Positions 6,543 through 63,136 of a DNA stretch of 64,000 nt are shown here, one piece after another. The stretch comes from Allomuricauda sp. (GTDB lineage Bacteria; Bacteroidota; Bacteroidia; Flavobacteriales; Flavobacteriaceae). Numbering within the stretch: the stretch's first letter is position 1; each line of letters begins with the position of its first letter. Under the pieces are notes generated by a model. That model saw only the letters and a list, made by a program, of their open reading frames with translations. It did no database searches and was not told the origin of the DNA. The stretch spans positions 369,033 through 433,032 of the forward strand of contig CP051244.1 in the NCBI GenBank assembly GCA_017795045.1, given 5' to 3'. The translations under genes were made by a program, and so were the position numbers.

Positions 6543-7538
6543 TTAATTATTGGCCGCGGGACAATAGCAATCATATCGCTTGCCCTGGTCGCTCTGTCCA
6601 AAATCGTATCCCAAGGTAATCTGGTGAAAGCCTCCATTATCAAAACGGATGTCCCCTGATTGGTAGGAATAATTATAGGAAAACATAAAATTGTTCACAT
6701 TGACCCCAATAATGGGCGTGAACAACTGCAGTCGTTGCTCTGCAAAACCGCCATTGGACTGATACTGTGCACCATCAAAACTTCTTCTGTACGATAAACC
6801 ACCCCAAACGGTTCCAAAACTCACATCCCTATACACTTTGGCATTGAGGTCCACAGTTTTTTCTTTGGTAAAATCGGTCATTTGAAACAAAATGGAAGGC
6901 TCAATTCGGGTCGTTCTACCAAAAACATATCCCACGGAGAACAAATACCGCCTCAAATTGTCAAATTCGGCAGCACTGTATAGATCCCGACCACTTCCCA
7001 AAACGTTCAAGATAGCGGCATGGGCGTAAAATTCAAGAAAATTGTAAGACGCCCCTAAATCCACATTAAAGTAACTGGTCGTATTTTTCACCCCAGTGAT
7101 TACGGGGTCAGGGAATACCGACCTGAATTCCGTTTCGTCCAAACTACTCAGTATCACCCCGGCACTCAGTCCAAAAGATAATTGGTTGAGGGTCCTGAAA
7201 TCACCCGCCAATTGCAAGTGGTGGGCATACGTGGCCTTAAATCCGGTTTGGGAATGATATCCATTGGAATCATTGAAAAGAATCCCTCCAATACCACTTC
7301 GCTCCCCTACCCTCGAGTTGATGCTCAATGTCTGTAAATTGGGCGCTTCGTCCACACTGAACCATTGCTTTCTGGCCGTCAGACGTACTTTGGTCCCTTC
7401 GGCAATTCCAGCCATGGATGGATATACCAAATAGTAATTGTCCGACAAATAATCGAAATAAACCGGAATTCCTTCCTGCGCCTTGGCAAATAGCCCAAAA
7501 AACAGGGTTAATATCGTTGAGGTTATGTAGCGTCTCAT
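6543..7538 (-). CDS. PorP/SprF-family type IX secretion membrane protein
   Basis: 331 residues from the ATG at 7538, with signal peptide MRRYITSTILTLFFGLFAKAQ. The rest is a predicted outer-membrane beta-barrel with alternating hydrophobic strands and the family features YDYLSDNYY-like start, NPSMAG-like YPSMAG, and GLSYRR near the C-terminus. PorP/SprF proteins work with the T9SS, often paired with one large cell-surface substrate such as SprB. No such partner adjoins this gene; its neighbours are a vWA protein and an Fe-S scaffold gene. The reading frame extends a little upstream, but the ATG at 7538 begins a clean signal peptide. Confidence 0.85.
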   Translation of the reverse strand: MRRYITSTILTLFFGLFAKAQEGIPVYFDYLSDNYYLVYPSMAGIAEGTKVRLTARKQWFSVDEAPNLQTLSINSRVGERSGIGGILFNDSNGYHSQTGFKATYAHHLQLAGDFRTLNQLSFGLSAGVILSSLDETEFRSVFPDPVITGVKNTTSYFNVDLGASYNFLEFYAHAAILNVLGSGRDLYSAAEFDNLRRYLFSVGYVFGRTTRIEPSILFQMTDFTKEKTVDLNAKVYRDVSFGTVWGGLSYRRSFDGAQYQSNGGFAEQRLQLFTPIIGVNVNNFMFSYNYSYQSGDIRFDNGGFHQITLGYDFGQSDQGKRYDCYCPAANN

Positions 7539-7621
7539 GTGACGGTTGGGGCTATAGTGGTTGTGTTGTAACTGCAATTAAACATTTAGATAACGATTTG
7601 CCGGGTACATTATTATAATAT

Positions 7622-25511: not shown

Positions 25512-28500
25512 CTAGTTTCCGAAGTTGTAGCGCAAGGTAAATCCTGTATTGATCGTAGTCTGTGGAAAAGCTGTTGAGACCGCAAACTTTGAGAAGGAAT
25601 GATCGTAAAAGAACAGCGCATTGAAATTCTTGCTCAAGGCGTAATCGGCAGTAAACTTAATAGACATCAAATTCTGGCCCGAAGTGATCTGGTTATTGTC
25701 TATGTCCAAATTTCGGATGATGGTAATATTATCCCTAAGGGTAAGATCAAATTTTAAATTAAGATCTCCCTTGAGTCGGGTTTTTTCCCCGCCAATGTTG
25801 GTTACCATTTTTACATCCTTGAACCGGTAGCCCAATCCAAGGGTATATTCCTTTCCATTGATCTCGGTCATCAAATTATTGTCAAAACTCAAGGATAGGG
25901 TCCTGTCCGTTCTCACCTCGGCCAAAAAGCTAAAGGAATTCTGCATTTCAAAATCTACCCGCATCAATGGGTTGAACTGGTCCGTCAACACCACATTGTT
26001 GATAATGTTCTCGGGAAGCGCATCATCATTTTCCACATTTATGGGGGGCAGACCATCCTTTATCAATTGCTCCCGAGCCAAGTTTGTCTGGAAAGAATTG
26101 ATGCTATAGGCCGCACGATAGCCATGACTCAAAGAGAAACGTTTGAACTTCTTCCTAAACCAACGGTTTTTCATCAATCCGGTGTACTTAAGGTTCCAGT
26201 TAGGAATAGGTATCTGACGGAAGGCATCCAAATTAACACGGTTCACATCCTGACCGGTATAGGCCGCAAAGAAAGCAGGCAACAACACTTCTTGCTGCGT
26301 CTTTCCATAACGTTCCGGGAATCCATCCTCATCCAAAGTTCCTGGGTTTTCTCCGCGATCGGAAACCAATCGATTGGCTACAGTGACCCTATTCTGCTTG
26401 AACTGCTCAAAAGTTTCCGAATCAAACTCATCGCTCTTGCTGAATATGGTGCCAATCATTATGGTGGAAATACTAAAATTTCCAAAATTGTTGCCCAACA
26501 AGGTCTCATACTCAAACTGCCCCCCTCCAAGATCATTTACCTTAAAGGTCTCCTGATAACTGTTGGATATCTGTCTATCGGCCGTAATATCTATGGTCAA
26601 GTCTTGCGTAGGCTGGGCCGTGGCGGTAATGTTCAATTGTTTGGTGGAGTTCTGCATAAATTGGGTGTTGAACTCCGTGAAAGTAGTCAACCAACCTTTT
26701 CGGGCAGCCTCGTACCGCACATCGGCCTGACTACCGAACACAAATCCTATGGAAGGTCTGGCCGTACCGATAAAGCCAATGCTTTGGGTATACCCGGGCA
26801 ACATTTTACCCCTATTCTCAGTGTAGTTGATATTGACCCGCTTCACCATGGTCACAATATCCACCAAGGTATTGAATCCCTTGCCGGTCTTTTTGGGCGC
26901 GCTGCTTTCCGAATTAGTGGCGGGATTACCCGCTTTGTCCCTTCGCACAGGCGCTTGGGAAGCCGTTACCTTACCATCCCGCTTCTTTAATCCCAAAAAG
27001 TCGTAGAAACGTTGCATGGTCAGGTTACCCGTTATATTATGGGTACTGGCATTCTGCACCGTATTGATATCCTGACCGGCCACTTCATTGAGCGCATCGC
27101 CTCCCCGCTGCCAATCGAAATTACTGGTGTAGGTGTACTGGGCATTGATAAAATCAAGGAACGGGAACTTGCTAAAAGGCAATTCGTAGTTCAACTGCAT
27201 CTGCTGGGCATGACGATTGGGCTCTCCAATGTCGAAAAATCCGTCCCACAGATCCAACGCCTGGTTGATCCCTGAATCCTCATCATCATCCACATTGAAG
27301 TAATTCCGTACTATATTGTTGTTGGAGGCCGTCAAATTAAGACGTAGGGACTTGGAGATACTATAATTGAGTGCATATTGCCAATTGAACAGATAGTTGC
27401 GTTGTTGCAACAAGGGGAGCTCCAAAGCATCCACCCCTGGCTCCAACACATCCCTGAACCGTTGTTGGTTGAAAGCCCGGTTGATGTTGGCATTCACCGA
27501 CATGCTGGTGGGCAGTACATTCAAGTTCAAATCCTTGAGCCATTTCCAATACCTTCCGGTAAACAAGGAATCCTTTTTGGCAAATGGGGCAACGGGAGCT
27601 GGTTTAAAATTGTGGTTGTACACAAAGCCCGTATTCACATTCTGATCTTTTAGATCGGCTATCTCAAAATCCCGATGGCTGGTTTCATTATAGGAATAAT
27701 TAAAGGTGAAGTTCTCTATATCAAAAAAGTCCTCTTTGGCTTCCTCACCCCTATTTTTTCTCACCCCGATCAGGTTGAAACTAGTCCGCTTGGTGTAATC
27801 CTCGGCCTGCTCTTGAATGGTTTCGGCATCTTCCTGCGTGGCTGCTGCCGCAATACGGTCGTCCAGTTTTAAATCGTCATATACGGGGTCAAATTCCGGA
27901 GTGATCAAGGTTTCCGACACACCATAATTGAACGGCACCTGAAGGTTCCACTTTTTGGGCAACAGCTGCCCGGCATTTACATTGGTCACCATATCATAGG
28001 AAACCGCATCTTCCCTGGAACGTTCGTTGGGCATTTGGTCTATGGAACCAAAACCTGAGGTACTCTTGCTCCCGGTCACGGAAATGTTGGCAAAATCGGC
28101 CATATTGGCGTCCATGGCCACAATAGCGGCCCAACCACCTTTATTGTCCAAGCCCACAAGGCGTAATTCGTTGAACCACACCTCTCCCCTTGCCGGAAGG
28201 TCATCAATGTTCTTTATCCCGACCATCATACCGCGGATACTTCCCAAGGAAGGGTTACCGCGAATCCCAATTCGCACCCTTCCCAACGTACGTGGGGCAA
28301 ACTCATCCACAGGAATGGCTTCGCCATCCACAATTTCATAATAGTTGGTTTCGTTCAGGGTCTGTTCCGCTATTCCTTTGGATTTTACCTTGTTCAAATC
28401 ATTCAAGGCAATATCTATTTGGTTGACATCGGGCCAAATCTCCTCTGCGGAGGTCACATTGAAAGGGGTAAACTGCAATGGAAGTTCCACCTGATAGTAG

Positions 28501-31500
28501 TTCTCGGAGAAATCCGTTCCAATCCGAAGGAATCCTACCAATGGGGTGTCGCTATCGGCATAGTCCCCATTCATTATTTTTTCAGCGTGCATGAACATTT
28601 TAATCCGTTCATACTGACGTACATCCACATTCACATTCTTGAACACCCCACGGGAATCCTCAGACTCCAAGTTTTCCACTACAAATGACAAGGATTGTTC
28701 ATTCTGACGGATAATGGTGTTGTTATTGTTCAGCTGTTCCCGCACCACCCCTGGAGGCAATACATAAGGAATAGGTTGGCGACCAAAGTTTTCTTCAATA
28801 TTGACCGTGTTCACGTCGGTTACGGTTCCATCATCGGAAGGATCATTGTCCACTTCTTCAGGTTGTAGGGACCTTGAATAGGTACGCCAATCACCACGGA
28901 CCAAATCCAAGGTAGCAAAACGCATGACCACATCATCAGAGAATCCGGTAAGGTACATCCGCATAAAGCTAATAGACCTGAAATCTGTAATCCCTCCCAC
29001 GGCATCGGTAAAATCACTCAACGGAATCTTATACTGTATCCACCTACGGTTCAATTGGGTTCCATTGGGCAGGGTTGGGGTCTGTCCCTCACGGATATCC
29101 GTAACATACTTGTCGTTGATGGTGGTATTGGGTTTGATCTCGATACGGTACTCATAGTAACTGTTCACCGTGTTCATGGTCAAATCGCGATCAATGTCCT
29201 CCACATCGGGCAATGTGGTAGAACCCCTATTGGTATTGGTCACGGCCACGGGTGAGTTGCCTTGCGTATTGTTGAAATCAAGATAACGCTCCATGATGCT
29301 TCCCTCACGGTTCAAATAATATTGGTAGTTGTCCAAGGCGGGATCTTCTGCAGGACCGTTATATATGGCCTGCTCTTCGGCGTCGCTCAAACCATCCAAT
29401 CCAACGTCTTGTGAGGTACGGTTCGTTTCATCTGCATCAAAAGCATATACCAGGGATTGTGTGGAGGGTACTTGCCCCCACATAGTGGGTCTGGGCACCT
29501 CGCTATTGGTGCTTGCCGGTAATCCGTTTTCATATTGCTTACGACCATCACGCAAAATATCTTCGGAAATGTTCCCCAAGTTCAATACTAGCTCACCCGC
29601 GTTGGAGTTGTCGGTCTGCCCATCCACATAGGGGTCCAATACCCAAAACTGGACAAATTCCACATTGGATTGCTCAAAATTGGTACTGCTCAACGGACGC
29701 ATGATACCGGCCCATTTGTCTTGCGGTGCTTCGGTCTCAAAACTTGGGTTGGCATTGTACGGCCCTTTTTGATTGGGATAGTATACAATGTCCAAGGTGC
29801 TCTGCACCTGGGTCTGGCCCTGGGCAATGTCGGTTTCGGTAAAGACCTCATCAATGAATACCCTTCGGGTAGTGTTCAAGGAAATGTCATTGTCCGATAA
29901 ACCGGATGGTCTTTGATTGGTATAAAAGATGGGGTCGATGGTGTACCAAGCCATCTTGGCACGCTCATAGCCCACATCAATATCGGTTCTGTCCTGAATG
30001 AATTCCACTGGCGGGCTCGCAAGGGTCCACCCCAAGGAGGAACGAATGTCGATCAACGCTTGGGCCCCTTCAAAATCATCCAAATAGGTTGTGGTCTCTC
30101 CCTGAAAATCTGCATTCTTGGGTGAATTGGGCTTTAAAAAAGCCACTTCGCCCCGCAAGGACAGGTTGGAAGGCACATCGGTATCTATGTTGGGTAACTT
30201 ATTGGCCAAACGGGTCAAGAATGGAATCTCGGTGCTAAAATTTCCATTCAAACCAAAAATGGTATTGTTTACAGGTTCTACCCCATAGTTGGATTTTTGG
30301 GTAAGCGGTCTTTCATTTAGGTTGAGAAGGGTTCCTCCCAAAACAAATTTTTCATTGAACTGGTGTTCCACGTTTACCCCTGCAAATCGACGGGTCTGCT
30401 GTCCGAAAACCGCATTGTTTTCCACCGAAATGTTAATGGGGGTATTGGATGCGGCCAAACTGGGATCCAAAATCTGGACGGTTCCCGCTTGATAGTTCAC
30501 CGTATAATCTATTCCTTCCTGAAGTTGTCGGCCTCCTGCCGTTACCCGCACCGAACCCCTAGGTACGTTGAACGCCCCAATTGGAATACCATTATTCCCT
30601 TGCGACTTATAACGTCCCTTGATCTGAAAACGGTTCTTTTCCGCATCCTGCAATGACGCCGCTTTGGTTTTGGCATACATATTACGGAACACATATCGTC
30701 TTTGGTTGGCATTATACCCTTGATCGTTCTCAACATCATAGGTTCCACCTCCCATCTCCTCAAAGAGGTACTCCCCAAAAGGCTCCACCTTGGTAAAGAT
30801 GATACGTCCAGACTGTGGGTCCACGGTAATACCCGGCACGTAGTCAAAGAATCCATCCCCTCCAGGTTGAATGTCATTGTACACATTCAAACGGTCCAGG
30901 TTGAACACATTGATCAATATGCGGTCCTCCAAACCATTGGGCCATCCCGCATTGGGATCCACCGGCGTAATATAGTTTCTTGGTGTGGGGTCGGAATAAA
31001 GAATGTTGAGTTTAAAATCTTCCTGATCTAATTGAAAAGCTCCTGTGGAATAGATGTTTTTCATCATCAAATCCCAAATGGGATCCTCCACATTGGTAAT
31101 GTTGCTCTTCAACAATTTCAGGATCAAGGTATTGTTCTCAATGATAGGATTCACTCCTCCGGAAACGGTTGTGGCATCTACCCCGCCATTGGCAAACTCC
31201 CCTACTTGGTACACTTGGCCATTGATGGTATATTGAAAAGCAACCCCCAATACCTCATCATTGCTCAAACGCTGGTTCAAGGATATATATCCCAATTGCG
31301 AATTGAACTGGTAATCCCTGCCCTGCTCCAATTTTCGGGCATTTTCCAAGATGGCATAGTCAAATCCTTGGTTCACTTGATACCCGGGAACATTGAAACC
31401 TGCTTCCACCGTGGCAATATCACGAATGGACTGGGTCAAGGCGCCTGTCCCAATCTGAGCTGGATCATAGGCATTGGCCGCATTCTGCGGATATCCCGTG

Positions 31501-32654
31501 ACTATGGCCGATGGATTAAAAAATCCTGCCGGGTCTCCATTATTGATACCGATTCGGGTCTTATCCTCCAATGCTTCCCCCAAATCCTGAAGGGCCACCA
31601 CATTCCTCACATTGAGGGTCTGCTGGTTACGGTTGGTCACCCATACCTCCAATCGGGTAATCTGTACTTGGCTCCTAATAAAAGGATAGTCTTGAAGGGC
31701 ACGATCGTAATTGTCCCTAAAATATTGGGCGAGGAAAAAGTGCTTGTCCTCATCATAATCCAAGGCAGTTAGCGAGAATTCATTCAGGGTTCCCCCTCCT
31801 TGCGCCACAACCGTATTGTTCTGCGACCGCTGTTCCGAAAAAACGGCGGTTACCGTGGTTTTTCCAAATTGCAATTGGGTCTTCACCCCAAAAAGGCTCT
31901 GTGCTCCCGTGATCAAAGAACTGTTCAAGGGCATATTCACATTACCAATTTCAATCTTCTGAAGAATATCATCCTCAGTGGGAGTGTATTCCAGTTTCAC
32001 CAAGTTCTGAAAATCAAAAACAGCCTCTGTATCATAGTTGGCGGTCACCTGAAGACGTTCGCCAACCTTTCCCAACAAGCTCAAACTGATTCGCTGGTCA
32101 AAATCAAACGAAAGATTGGTCCGGTTACGGGGCGAAAGGGCCGGGTTGTCGTTCTTTTGCCAAAGTACCCCAAGGTCCATGGCCACGGAACCCTGCGGAA
32201 TCACCTCAATGGTATTTCCCCCAAAGATGGATTCAAAGAAGTTACTGTTCACATAAAAATTGGGCAATAGGTTCTTTCGGGCCTCCTCACTTCCTTCCTT
32301 TTTCCCGGTAAAAGCATCAATCTTCTGCTTGAAATAGGACCTCATCTGCTCTTTCCGTACCAGTTCATAGTATTGGTCCGGGGTAAGGATAACAGGATAA
32401 TTGATATTGAAATCCCCTATACTCTCGGTGTAGATGTAACGGTCGGTTTGGGGATCGTAAGTATATTTGGCAATAATGCTATCGGGGTTCTCCAAGATAA
32501 GCCTACCCAGGTCTACCCCGGTCTGTACAGAATCCTGAACCTGTTCATTGGTCTCCTCCTGACCCATCATGGACGTGACGGCCAAAAAACAGATGAATAC
32601 GAAAATGTACTTAAAACTGGCTGGTTTAAGTATTGGTTTTGCCCCTCTTTTCAA
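25512..32654 (-). CDS. sprA: SprA, outer-membrane translocon of the type IX secretion system
   Basis: 2380 residues, close to the roughly 2400 of Flavobacterium johnsoniae SprA (Sov in Porphyromonas). SprA forms the very large single-chain beta-barrel pore through which T9SS substrates leave the cell; it is required for gliding and adhesin secretion. A hydrophobic signal (about 13-30, ending MMGQ) is followed by long beta-rich stretches and repeated SprA-type segments, and the protein ends in a strand-like NTGFTLRYNF. The first codon appears to be TTG, 5 bases after the ruvA stop, with no better ATG before the signal peptide, so the exact start is uncertain. No interruption of the frame is seen. 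Confidence 0.95.
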   Translation of the reverse strand: MKRGAKPILKPASFKYIFVFICFLAVTSMMGQEETNEQVQDSVQTGVDLGRLILENPDSIIAKYTYDPQTDRYIYTESIGDFNINYPVILTPDQYYELVRKEQMRSYFKQKIDAFTGKKEGSEEARKNLLPNFYVNSNFFESIFGGNTIEVIPQGSVAMDLGVLWQKNDNPALSPRNRTNLSFDFDQRISLSLLGKVGERLQVTANYDTEAVFDFQNLVKLEYTPTEDDILQKIEIGNVNMPLNSSLITGAQSLFGVKTQLQFGKTTVTAVFSEQRSQNNTVVAQGGGTLNEFSLTALDYDEDKHFFLAQYFRDNYDRALQDYPFIRSQVQITRLEVWVTNRNQQTLNVRNVVALQDLGEALEDKTRIGINNGDPAGFFNPSAIVTGYPQNAANAYDPAQIGTGALTQSIRDIATVEAGFNVPGYQVNQGFDYAILENARKLEQGRDYQFNSQLGYISLNQRLSNDEVLGVAFQYTINGQVYQVGEFANGGVDATTVSGGVNPIIENNTLILKLLKSNITNVEDPIWDLMMKNIYSTGAFQLDQEDFKLNILYSDPTPRNYITPVDPNAGWPNGLEDRILINVFNLDRLNVYNDIQPGGDGFFDYVPGITVDPQSGRIIFTKVEPFGEYLFEEMGGGTYDVENDQGYNANQRRYVFRNMYAKTKAASLQDAEKNRFQIKGRYKSQGNNGIPIGAFNVPRGSVRVTAGGRQLQEGIDYTVNYQAGTVQILDPSLAASNTPINISVENNAVFGQQTRRFAGVNVEHQFNEKFVLGGTLLNLNERPLTQKSNYGVEPVNNTIFGLNGNFSTEIPFLTRLANKLPNIDTDVPSNLSLRGEVAFLKPNSPKNADFQGETTTYLDDFEGAQALIDIRSSLGWTLASPPVEFIQDRTDIDVGYERAKMAWYTIDPIFYTNQRPSGLSDNDISLNTTRRVFIDEVFTETDIAQGQTQVQSTLDIVYYPNQKGPYNANPSFETEAPQDKWAGIMRPLSSTNFEQSNVEFVQFWVLDPYVDGQTDNSNAGELVLNLGNISEDILRDGRKQYENGLPASTNSEVPRPTMWGQVPSTQSLVYAFDADETNRTSQDVGLDGLSDAEEQAIYNGPAEDPALDNYQYYLNREGSIMERYLDFNNTQGNSPVAVTNTNRGSTTLPDVEDIDRDLTMNTVNSYYEYRIEIKPNTTINDKYVTDIREGQTPTLPNGTQLNRRWIQYKIPLSDFTDAVGGITDFRSISFMRMYLTGFSDDVVMRFATLDLVRGDWRTYSRSLQPEEVDNDPSDDGTVTDVNTVNIEENFGRQPIPYVLPPGVVREQLNNNNTIIRQNEQSLSFVVENLESEDSRGVFKNVNVDVRQYERIKMFMHAEKIMNGDYADSDTPLVGFLRIGTDFSENYYQVELPLQFTPFNVTSAEEIWPDVNQIDIALNDLNKVKSKGIAEQTLNETNYYEIVDGEAIPVDEFAPRTLGRVRIGIRGNPSLGSIRGMMVGIKNIDDLPARGEVWFNELRLVGLDNKGGWAAIVAMDANMADFANISVTGSKSTSGFGSIDQMPNERSREDAVSYDMVTNVNAGQLLPKKWNLQVPFNYGVSETLITPEFDPVYDDLKLDDRIAAAATQEDAETIQEQAEDYTKRTSFNLIGVRKNRGEEAKEDFFDIENFTFNYSYNETSHRDFEIADLKDQNVNTGFVYNHNFKPAPVAPFAKKDSLFTGRYWKWLKDLNLNVLPTSMSVNANINRAFNQQRFRDVLEPGVDALELPLLQQRNYLFNWQYALNYSISKSLRLNLTASNNNIVRNYFNVDDDEDSGINQALDLWDGFFDIGEPNRHAQQMQLNYELPFSKFPFLDFINAQYTYTSNFDWQRGGDALNEVAGQDINTVQNASTHNITGNLTMQRFYDFLGLKKRDGKVTASQAPVRRDKAGNPATNSESSAPKKTGKGFNTLVDIVTMVKRVNINYTENRGKMLPGYTQSIGFIGTARPSIGFVFGSQADVRYEAARKGWLTTFTEFNTQFMQNSTKQLNITATAQPTQDLTIDITADRQISNSYQETFKVNDLGGGQFEYETLLGNNFGNFSISTIMIGTIFSKSDEFDSETFEQFKQNRVTVANRLVSDRGENPGTLDEDGFPERYGKTQQEVLLPAFFAAYTGQDVNRVNLDAFRQIPIPNWNLKYTGLMKNRWFRKKFKRFSLSHGYRAAYSINSFQTNLAREQLIKDGLPPINVENDDALPENIINNVVLTDQFNPLMRVDFEMQNSFSFLAEVRTDRTLSLSFDNNLMTEINGKEYTLGLGYRFKDVKMVTNIGGEKTRLKGDLNLKFDLTLRDNITIIRNLDIDNNQITSGQNLMSIKFTADYALSKNFNALFFYDHSFSKFAVSTAFPQTTINTGFTLRYNFGN

Positions 32655-59713: not shown

Positions 59714-62700
59714 ATGGGCTTAATCTTATACGGCAAACAGATAGCAAAAAGAGTACCGTCAAGGAACTATCTTTTCCTACTCCTTTTGTTGCTGGGCAGC
59801 TCATCCCTATCCTCACAAACCACACTTTGGAACGAAAATTTCACGTACAACAACAACACCCAAAGTGGAACCGCGACAGGCCCTTCTGCTTCGGATTGGA
59901 CTACAGACCGAGGCAACAGACTATCCGTTAGGAACAATGCATTAAGAGGCAGAAACCTGGATTCCCAAGGCACTTGGCAAACCGACCCGATCGACATCAC
60001 CGGATACGACTTCATAAGTTTCAGCATGGAAACCTGGGTGGATGATGAAGATGAAATGGACAATGGCAATGATTATTTCAGGGGAGCATACCGTATTGAC
60101 GGAGGATCTTGGCAGCAATTTGTAAATGCCTCTGGATCGGATTCGGACCCACTGGACCCTTCTTATACGGTAAACCTATCCACTACCGGGAATTCCACCC
60201 TCGAAATCAGGGTGCAAATGCTCAACCAAAATAATGATGAGCAATATTATATTGATGATGTATCGGTTGTTGGATATTCTGGAATATGCAACGGCGAGAT
60301 TGATTTTGAATTTTATGATAGTGTCCCATCAGGTTACACCACAGACAATATCCCAACTTCCGGAGCCTTGGGAACAGGTGTGTTCTCCAGTTTTGATGTG
60401 GACGCCCTCCAAAATCAGGAAGATCCGGGGGATGCCGAAAGTTTTAGCATCAGATACTCTGGATATATCCAAATCAACACCGCAGGCTCCTATACTTTTT
60501 ATACCTCATCGGATGATGGCTCCAAACTCTTCATTGATGGAACCCAAGTGGTGGACAACGATGGTCTGCACGGCACACAAGAAAGGTCGGGCTCCATATC
60601 ACTTAGCGCAGGCTTGCATCCCATCACCGTCCTGTTTTTTGAAAATGGCGGCGGGGAAACCTTAAACGTCCAATACCAAGGCCCTTCCATTTCCAAACAA
60701 AACGTACCTTTTTCCATATTGTATTCCAATTGTAGCGTAGCCATAGCAGATTTGGATGGCGATGGCATTGAGGACAGTGTTGACGTTGATGACGACAACG
60801 ATGGTATATTGGATACAGATGAATGTGGTGGATTGAGTGTAAATTATGCCATATCAGCTACCAATATCAGACACTTTAGCAATGACTCCAACGCCCAAGG
60901 AAATCCCGGGACAACATATGCCTCCAACTCGCCCACCACATATCCTGGAGCAAGCTCCATCCTACTTCTTCAGTTCCCAACGGCATTGCCCATAGGCACC
61001 AGTGTAAGTGTATTTTTAGGGGCAGATCCCGCAGTGACCGATACAGATATGCAATTACAACGTTCGGATGCCGCAGGAAACAGCAATGGCTGGATTGCCA
61101 ATGCCGACAATACTGCACCGGGCTCCATACGGGAAGTTACCTTTACCGTAAGTGGAAGCTCCTTGGAGTATCTTCGTATTGAGGCCTACCAAATTGGAGC
61201 AAGAATCTATGGCGCCAGTTATAGTGGCACCGTGGATTGCACTACCGTAGATACCGATGGGGACGGCATCCCCAATTACCAAGACCTTGATAGCGATGGT
61301 GACGGCATCCCCGATAATGTGGAGGCCCAAACCTCTTTGGGATATACAGCACCCACTGGCAGCGATTCAGACAATGATGGTTTGGACAACGCCTATGAAA
61401 CAGGTGGGATTTCTTATGTGGACACTGATGGGGATGGCACGCCCGATTTTTTGGATACGGACAGCGACAATGACGGAACAAATGACACTACGGAAGCCGC
61501 CCTTTCCCTCTCAGGAACGGACAGCGATAATGATGGCTTGGATGATAATATGGACACCTCAACCGATTACGGCGACCCAGGTGGAACCATTGATGACCCC
61601 ACCACAACCAGTGGAGGCAGCATTATGCTACCGGATTCCGACGGGGACGCTGCATCCGGTGGTGATTTGGATTTTAGGGACGATACCAATGATGGCAACC
61701 AACCGCCCTCCATTTCTGCTACCGGAGATCAGATATTCTGTCCCGGCAGTCCAATAGCCATTGCTGAAAGTGTATCCATTTCAGACCCAGATACCGCTAC
61801 CTTGGATGCAGTCTATATACAGATAACTTCCAACTACGACAATTCGGGCGACCTCTTGAGCTTAACGGGTACACACCCCAATATCACAGCCAGCTGGAGC
61901 TCTTCGGAAGGAAGACTTACCTTGACCGGTCCGGCTACACTAGCAGAATTTGAAACAGCTGTGGCTGCTGTCACATTCCAAACCACCGCAACAGTTGCTT
62001 CTGGGGATACCCGAAGTTTTTCCATCGTATTGAACGAGGCCAATTACCTTGCCTCCACCGGACACTATTACGAATATGTGCCCGCTTTGGGCATCACATG
62101 GACCTCTGCCAGGGATGCCGCCACTCTCCGAACATTTTATGGACTCCAAGGATATTTGGCCACCATTTCCATTCAGGATGAATCCGACCTTTTGGGGTCG
62201 CAAGCTCCAGGAGCTGGGTGGATCGGGGCCAGCGACGCCGCCTTGGAAGGGGATTGGTATTGGGTAACCGGTCCAGAAGCCGGAACTTTGTTCTGGAGGG
62301 GAAATGCCTCAGGAACTGCCTTTGCCTACGAATTTTGGAACGGCGGGGAACCGAACAACTCAGGGAACGAAGATTATGCACACATCACAGCCCCGGGAGT
62401 TGGTCTTCCAGGTTCTTGGAATGACCTCTCCAATACAGGAGCCGCAAGCGGGGATTATCAACCTAAAGGATATTTGGTAGAATATGGAGGAATGCCCGGA
62501 GACCCACCTTACCCAAACCTTGCCGCAACCACAACCATTACCGTGGACAATGTTGCACCAACTGCCAGTAACCCGGCACCCCTAGCGGTGTATTGCACAG
62601 ATGATATTCCAGTACCCGATGTCACCGTTGTTAATGACGAAGCCGATAATTGTGATGCGAACCCTACCGTAACTTTCATCAGCGATGTTAGTGATGGTGG

Positions 62701-63136
62701 ATCCAATCCGGAAGTCATCACACGCACCTATAGGATAACTGATGTATCTGGAAATTTCTTGGATGTACAACAGACCATCACCGTTTCACCATTCAGCATT
62801 TCAAGTCAACCCACCGATCAAAATGTTGTTGCAGGGAATTCTGCCAACTTCTCCGTAACCGCCAGCAATGTTGACACCTACCAATGGGAGGTGAGCACTG
62901 ACGGAGGTAGCAACTTTGTATCCCTTACCGATGGCCCGGAATACACCGGGACACAAACGGCCAATCTTTCCGTGGTTGGGGCTGGGACCGATAAAAACGG
63001 ATACACCTTCCGAGTATTGGTTTCCAATTCCTCGGGGTCATGTAGCGCCCTTACTTCGGATGAAGCTACCTTGACGGTAAAAGTAGGGACCGTAATCACC
63101 AACCGTAGGGTTACGTACCGGGTAAACAAAAATTGA
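59714..63136 (+). CDS. Large secreted multidomain protein (PA14, thrombospondin type 3, C-type lectin)
   Basis: 1140 residues. Signal peptide (about 17-34) and a beta-sandwich region (about 35-190) come first. A PA14 domain follows (about 194-326, [20 protein letters not shown]), then Asp-rich calcium-binding thrombospondin type 3 repeats (about 349-372 and 513-621, [17 protein letters not shown]), then a cadherin-like stretch interrupted by a C-type lectin domain (about 785-926, with FWNGGEPNN and SWNDL). A HYR-like and an Ig-like domain (about 943-1126) lead to the ending [14 protein letters not shown]. It is expected at the cell surface or secreted. I see no standard T9SS type A or B sorting domain at the C-terminus. 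Sugar or glycan binding is likely; the target is unknown. Confidence 0.88.

Follow-up and report, generated by a model that had tools for sequence, protein, structure and literature searches.

How is a large adhesin-like protein exported and held at the cell surface when its end does not resemble the known C-terminal sorting domains of the type IX secretion system (T9SS)? The question is raised by one gene of Allomuricauda sp. in the window, by which we mean the whole stretch of 64,000 nucleotides that was analysed. The gene (59714-63136, + strand, as for all of its features given here) is a real open reading frame, as originally predicted, and encodes a tag-bearing multidomain surface protein of 1140 amino acids. 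Residues 1 to ~35 (59714-59818) form a probable Sec signal peptide, judged by eye, without a lipobox cysteine. Of the domains first proposed for this protein, PA14 is certain (residues 238-332, 60425-60709; PF07691, E=4.5e-17), and an Ig-like domain is supported at residues ~1025-1123 (62786-63082), where the AlphaFold blocks reach pLDDT values of 87-97 and the Foldseek matches are Ig domains (best E=5.4e-6). The remaining modules are visible and score under the Pfam cut-offs. These are the TSP3-like calcium-loop repeats at residues ~511-640 (61244-61633), with a shorter stretch at ~344-376 (TSP3_bac, E=0.08, below the curated cut-off); a C-type-lectin-like segment at residues 811-891 (62144-62386; PF00059, Lectin_C, E=0.064); and an HYR-like segment at residues 951-1024 (62564-62785; PF23237, HYR_4C, E=2.5e-4). 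The DxDxDG-type repeats are obvious by eye despite their low score, residues 519-580 are 52-65% identical to type B T9SS adhesins, and over residues 940-1024 the protein shares 55% identity with one of the genome's own type B adhesins. The protein finishes, at its exact C-terminus, in the segment that we call the tag (residues 1127-1140, 63092-63133), delimited by pattern search and by comparison of tails.

The T9SS setting of the gene is as had been described: the window encodes SprA (SprA_N, PF14349, E=1.6e-203; ORF 25512-32654) and a PorP/SprF protein (TIGR03519, 181 bits; match at ~6600-7517). None of the genome's TIGR04131 places adjoins the latter gene (6543-7577, - strand), which is an orphan carrier without a known substrate. 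Behind the gene under study, on the opposite strand, are genes that we take by eye to be rimP, nusA and infB. After it stands a cyclase-like gene, a truncated ORF that had no Pfam match at E<=0.01.

We found no known T9SS sorting domain in the protein. Against NCBIfam at E<=10, the whole protein matched only BamM and MtsC, with best stretches at residues 337-375 and 345-371, and its last 59 residues matched no NCBIfam or Pfam model. Neither the type A model (TIGR04183, at E<=10) nor the type B models (TIGR04131/PF13585) matched the whole protein or those last 59 residues. The TIGR models work in this genome, since a profile search found 11 TIGR04183 and 15 TIGR04131 places in it. For type C (ChiA type) there was likewise no NCBIfam or Pfam match of any kind, a result obtained with the libraries as a whole and with no one model singled out to stand for that type. 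A porP/sprF-like gene directly downstream, which is usual and not universal for type B substrates, is missing at this locus. No model of NCBIfam (June 2026) or Pfam covers the tails of eight representatives from different groups of related proteins (see below), and hhalign gave a probability of only ~0.1% for a link between either of the two large tail groups and the type B domain encoded in the cluster described below. On these library searches and the profile comparison we rejected a hidden type A or B domain. The original prediction was thus right that the end is unusual and carries no type A or type B domain, and incomplete in that the end is not merely devoid of anything signal-like: a short tag common to many proteins of the family is present.

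The tag emerged from a search for proteins ending in the same motif, which the original prediction had proposed. A degenerate DNA pattern for ITNRR[IV]T[YF]R, used as the strict search, occurs once in the genome of the window and at 91 places in 59 of 397 Flavobacteriaceae genomes, only part of these places having been read as protein ends; the reversed pattern occurs nowhere in the same 397 genomes. The tail is the exact C-terminus in 29 of the 30 loci read and internal in the other (L003). Across loci L031-L163, 147 ORFs end in the tail as defined by a slightly looser expression, 131 of them strictly, and a further eight carry the motif internally. Its typical form is VITNRRITYRVxKN, with a conserved part of 13 residues and a mean net charge of about +4, so that the tail is basic. 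Among 142 nonredundant ORFs, most (123) have a tail of 13 residues, counted from the first I of the motif; 16 have one of 12 residues and 3 one of 14-15. This set and the set of 152 tagged ORFs used below (both nonredundant by the last 60 residues) come mostly from loci found with the strict pattern, and the near-invariance of the core is therefore partly by construction.

The tag is concentrated in one family. In a phylum-wide draw of 395 genomes the pattern was present in 6 of 41 Flavobacteriaceae and in 1 of 354 others, where it does not mark a protein end like those above. A named collection held the pattern in at least 113 stretches; the 80 matches listed carry mostly what we take to be Flavobacteriaceae genus names, and the genera with the tag among them include Maribacter, Aquimarina, Zobellia, Cellulophaga, Arenibacter, Robiginitalea and Tenacibaculum. 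Three matches outside the family (L055, L092 and L210) were rejected as not being protein ends of the tail type; those in Crocinitomix (L055) and a Helicobacteraceae member (L092), both from the named collection, proved on reading to be chance occurrences.

The tail behaves as a module independent of the domain that precedes it. Compared by blastp over up to 110 residues preceding the tail, the 152 tagged ORFs fall into 11 groups (65, 51, 7, 6, 6, 5, 3, 3, 2, 2 and 2 members), and the profiles of the two largest align only over their last 20 columns, with a probability of 98%. The peptide ITNRRITYRV is encoded exactly by 106 ORFs whose nucleotide cores are all distinct, differing on average at 7.2 of 30 bases; even pairs at the same locus with identical peptide cores differ at 4-9 of the 30. 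Judged from these codons, the tail is under selection at the protein level. The same genus offers an illustration. At the syntenic site in genome G384, between rimP-like and cyclase-like genes, a gene of 393 amino acids ends in an Ig domain followed by TVITNRKITFRVNQN; set beside the sequence of the window gene, its body is altered and its tail is kept. Tagged genes may also stand in tandem, with two to four of them, differing in their bodies, at L036, L038, L039, L049 and L050, where Ig-type and TSEFSP-type proteins are often neighbours.

Structure prediction gives the tail no fold of its own. In the AlphaFold model of the window protein the tail has a pLDDT of 62, is without secondary structure, and lies outside the preceding Ig domain, so the fold of that domain cannot explain its conservation. 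A model for the second large group (NTDNTN...TSEFSP) had a mean pLDDT of 50 and was left unused. A search of solved structures with a profile of the Ig domain plus tail returned Ig-like or unrelated chains, and none of the best 60 of 98 matches extended past position 106 of 117. Signal-peptide-like starts were present in 101 of the 113 tagged ORFs tested and a lipobox in none, by a crude hydrophobicity rule, and 50 of the 152 have body modules that also occur in type B adhesins. Given these signal-like starts, the missing lipobox and the shared modules, the tagged proteins are probably surface proteins that need a route across the outer membrane.

A recurrent gene order surrounds many of the tagged genes: a type B T9SS adhesin (CHU_C), a PorP/SprF protein (TIGR03519, E=6.3e-78), a PorE-like OmpA protein (NF053607, E=7.5e-123; NF052230 PorE, E=5.8e-94; both equivalog-level models, with scores below their curated cut-offs), one to four tagged genes, and a collagen-repeat protein. 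The last ends in a conserved domain that finishes LINVVFVVK (L034:16940-17329, L033:8020-8409 and 14 further loci). This domain had no Pfam match in two examples and no link to the type B domain by hhalign, and may be one more export or trimer domain that has escaped recognition. A second order, at Aquimarina and Tenacibaculum loci, consists of a collagen-like gene, a tagged gene and a gene for a short type B protein, with no PorP or PorE beside them in the stretches examined. Among 98 named loci of up to 8 kb with a tagged ORF, 45 show at least one of PorP/PorE, a collagen-end domain or a type B gene; the other 53 show none of these and either are solo or span too little sequence to judge. 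Genomes with the cluster PorE hold 78 tail places. Of these, 56 are no more than 20 kb from that gene, every one of them downstream and on the same strand; the other 22, the window's among them, are elsewhere. In G143 a tagged gene lies upstream of both PorP and PorE. At L197 (15095-16774, - strand) in G355, the gene directly downstream of PorE has the degenerate tail GVISNRKQTYRIKIF, and two genes with normal tails adjoin it.

The gene in the window is solo, with no partner genes of the cluster adjoining. Its genome has a type B-PorP-PorE cluster with a collagen-like ORF beside it and no tagged gene between, PorE and PorP lying at contig positions 1372-4273 and scoring 1228 and 631 bits, respectively; no match to the collagen-end profile was reported in this genome. 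The PorP/SprF gene of the window was considered as a partner and rejected: it is not a reported match to the profile of the cluster PorP, and the genome's one such match lies at contig positions 3329-4273. The T9SS context noted originally is present, and the relevant one seems to be this separate cluster rather than the SprA or PorP/SprF of the window. Two features define membership of the tag family, and the window protein has both: an ITNRR[IV]T[YF]R-type motif at its extreme C-terminus and a cluster PorP in its genome.

Across the 397 family genomes the tail and the cluster go together. Thresholds were placed after gaps in the scores had been seen, at 975 bits for the cluster PorE (next genome 868), 530 for the cluster PorP (next 517) and 148 for the collagen-end domain (next 129). 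With these, the cluster PorE was found in 50 of 59 genomes with a strict tail and in 8 of 338 others; the cluster PorP in 56 of 59 and 9 of 338; and the collagen-end domain in 58 of 59, the exception being the genome of the window, and 14 of 338. Seen from the other side, 55 of the 60 genomes with both the cluster PorP and the collagen-end domain carry a strict tail, as do one of five with the cluster PorP only (the genome of the window), three of twelve with the collagen-end domain only (G143, G086 and G177), and none of 320 with neither. Fisher tests gave p values below 1e-44, which ignore shared ancestry, and for this reason we put weight on the pattern and not on p.

Genomes without a strict match are less biased evidence, because most tagged ORFs were recruited through the strict pattern. 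Eight such genomes have a cluster PorE. Three bear variant tails just downstream of it (G307, G289 and G106); G384 has variant tails elsewhere, one of them at the locus in synteny with the window gene; in G037 the contig ends at the relevant position; and G184, G270 and G135, which have both the cluster PorE and PorP, showed no tail beside PorE in the stretch read. The same held for G150 and G077, with a cluster PorP, and no tail stood beside PorE in the genomes with PorE of intermediate score (G150, G288, G077, G353 and G179). In G126, G316, G182, G355, G143 and G086, which fall below a threshold, the cluster is present in diverged form. A further eight with a strong collagen-end domain have no cluster PorP, cluster PorE or strict tail, the search there having covered strict tails only. 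The eight ORFs with an internal motif (L033:6530-8011, L052, L063, L079, L095, L121, L139 and L155) continue for ~105-120 residues beyond it; in two examples an Ig_7 domain stands just ahead of the motif and no Pfam match follows. Of those among these loci that could be named, three are from Aquimarina, and the sole strict match of G177 is of this internal type.

We suggest that the tail is probably a previously undescribed address label for the cell surface. The last 13 residues would serve as a modular C-terminal recognition tag on proteins that reach the periplasm via Sec. There, the free basic tail may be recognised, perhaps by direct binding to PorP or PorE, by a dedicated T9SS carrier and anchor complex from one cluster, comprising the type B adhesin, the particular PorP/SprF barrel and the PorE-like OmpA protein, which would tie the complex to peptidoglycan. 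The tagged protein would then exit through the SprA translocon and remain on the surface, with the type B adhesin and the collagen-like protein as its neighbours. For the protein in the window, a solo user of the tag, the cluster elsewhere in the genome would act in trans. There are precedents for parts of this model. In Porphyromonas gingivalis, a type B protein joins PorE and PorP in a complex that is believed to anchor it to the surface (PMC9143113), and in Flavobacterium johnsoniae, PorP/SprF-like shuttles serve type B substrates, with three unlinked substrates sharing one shuttle (PMC12618676). By likeness to these systems, the tail would act as a short ticket to the cluster's carrier and anchor. 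We put the chance that the complex reads the tail close to even, and favour this reading because of where the tagged genes stand in the operon and because their products have to be exported.

A serious alternative, and the main rival to reading by a carrier, is that the tail docks tagged proteins outside the cell onto the collagen-like protein or the type B adhesin and decorates a surface fibre, with export owed to some other feature. Across genomes, the collagen-end domain follows the tail about as closely as PorP does, and the one genome lacking it, that of the window, has the collagen-like ORF beside its cluster. Moreover, the second gene order sets tagged genes directly by the collagen-like gene with no PorP or PorE beside them in the stretches examined, and the eight internal motifs, odd for a C-terminal sorting signal, fit docking because a docking peptide need not sit at the extreme end. 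The five genomes that have a cluster PorP and no tail beside PorE in the stretch read also count against the carrier, as does size, since known T9SS signals are folded domains of ~100 residues or more (PMC12618676) and the tail has 13. Docking, however, leaves passage across the outer membrane unexplained, sits uneasily with the 14 tail-negative genomes that bear a strong collagen-end domain (although the eight of these without a cluster PorP were searched for strict tails only), and does not account for a main gene order in which tagged genes directly follow PorE. We regard it as possible, if doubtful.

The remaining explanations are less probable. The tail's conserved pair of arginines and its place at the very C-terminus would suit a processing or retention site that an enzyme cuts or covalently modifies, in the manner of LPXTG, with no need for PorP or fibre contact. 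However, no recurrent protease- or sortase-like gene was noticed among neighbours, which were screened for PorP, PorE, type B, collagen and tail and by a few family scans, and we consider such a site unlikely. A type A, B or C domain that has degenerated or been truncated might be expected at this end from the T9SS setting and from the body modules common to type B adhesins, but 13 conserved residues are no domain, and the empty library searches with the eight representative tails and the negligible profile similarity make this very improbable. Still harder to credit is a functionless recombination artefact in which 3´ ends are copied between genes: tagged genes do often stand in tandem, but the peptide stays constant while synonymous positions vary, and these codon differences largely refute copying.

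Fully spelled out, the carrier model gives Flavobacteriaceae a T9SS-linked signal of a class not described before: an unfolded C-terminal peptide of 13 residues in place of a folded domain, read by a dedicated PorP/SprF-PorE complex. This would act in trans on several adhesins at once and build a surface structure of mixed composition, in which a type B adhesin and a collagen-like protein also take part. We offer this complete version only tentatively, well short of even. If it is true, substrate lists for the T9SS that are built on TIGR04183 and TIGR04131 leave out a group of surface proteins in the tag-bearing genera, and carrier recognition becomes directly testable, as a 13-residue tag can be fused to a reporter or mutated residue by residue. 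The tag also marks a conserved surface locus, in which a collagen-like component occurs together with a conserved C-terminal domain that has no name.

Short modular tags on many unrelated surface proteins, each with a dedicated partner, have parallels in LPXTG and PEP-CTERM. Unlike those, the tag described here has no hydrophobic membrane stretch after it and no recognised processing enzyme, and has ten near-invariant residues in succession. The T9SS signal classes A, B and C are those that a 2023 review names (PMC10202324), and a second paper lists the same three. Full-text searches of open-access articles, a body of literature outside which most subscription papers and bioRxiv preprints lie, found none that names the peptide in this setting; the single paper returned, on human cancer, was judged from its listing to have no connection. 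We take the tail to be a C-terminal surface tag of an undescribed class, probably linked to the T9SS. The type A domain (TIGR04183/PF18962), which works with PorV, resembles it in position, being the signal at the C-terminus of surface or secreted proteins encoded in this genome, and differs in being a seven-stranded sandwich (PMC12618676; PMC10994853), with no match to the tag. Also close in organisation is the type B domain (TIGR04131/PF13585, CHU_C) with its PorP/SprF and PorE partners. That domain is folded and of ~100 residues or more, whereas the tag, which has no sequence similarity to it, is a 13-residue segment that is unfolded in the AlphaFold model of the window protein. Nevertheless, both are C-terminal, both are found on adhesin-like proteins with shared body modules that are exported by Sec, for the tagged ones probably so, both belong to the same cluster, and both probably rely on a PorP/SprF-PorE complex.
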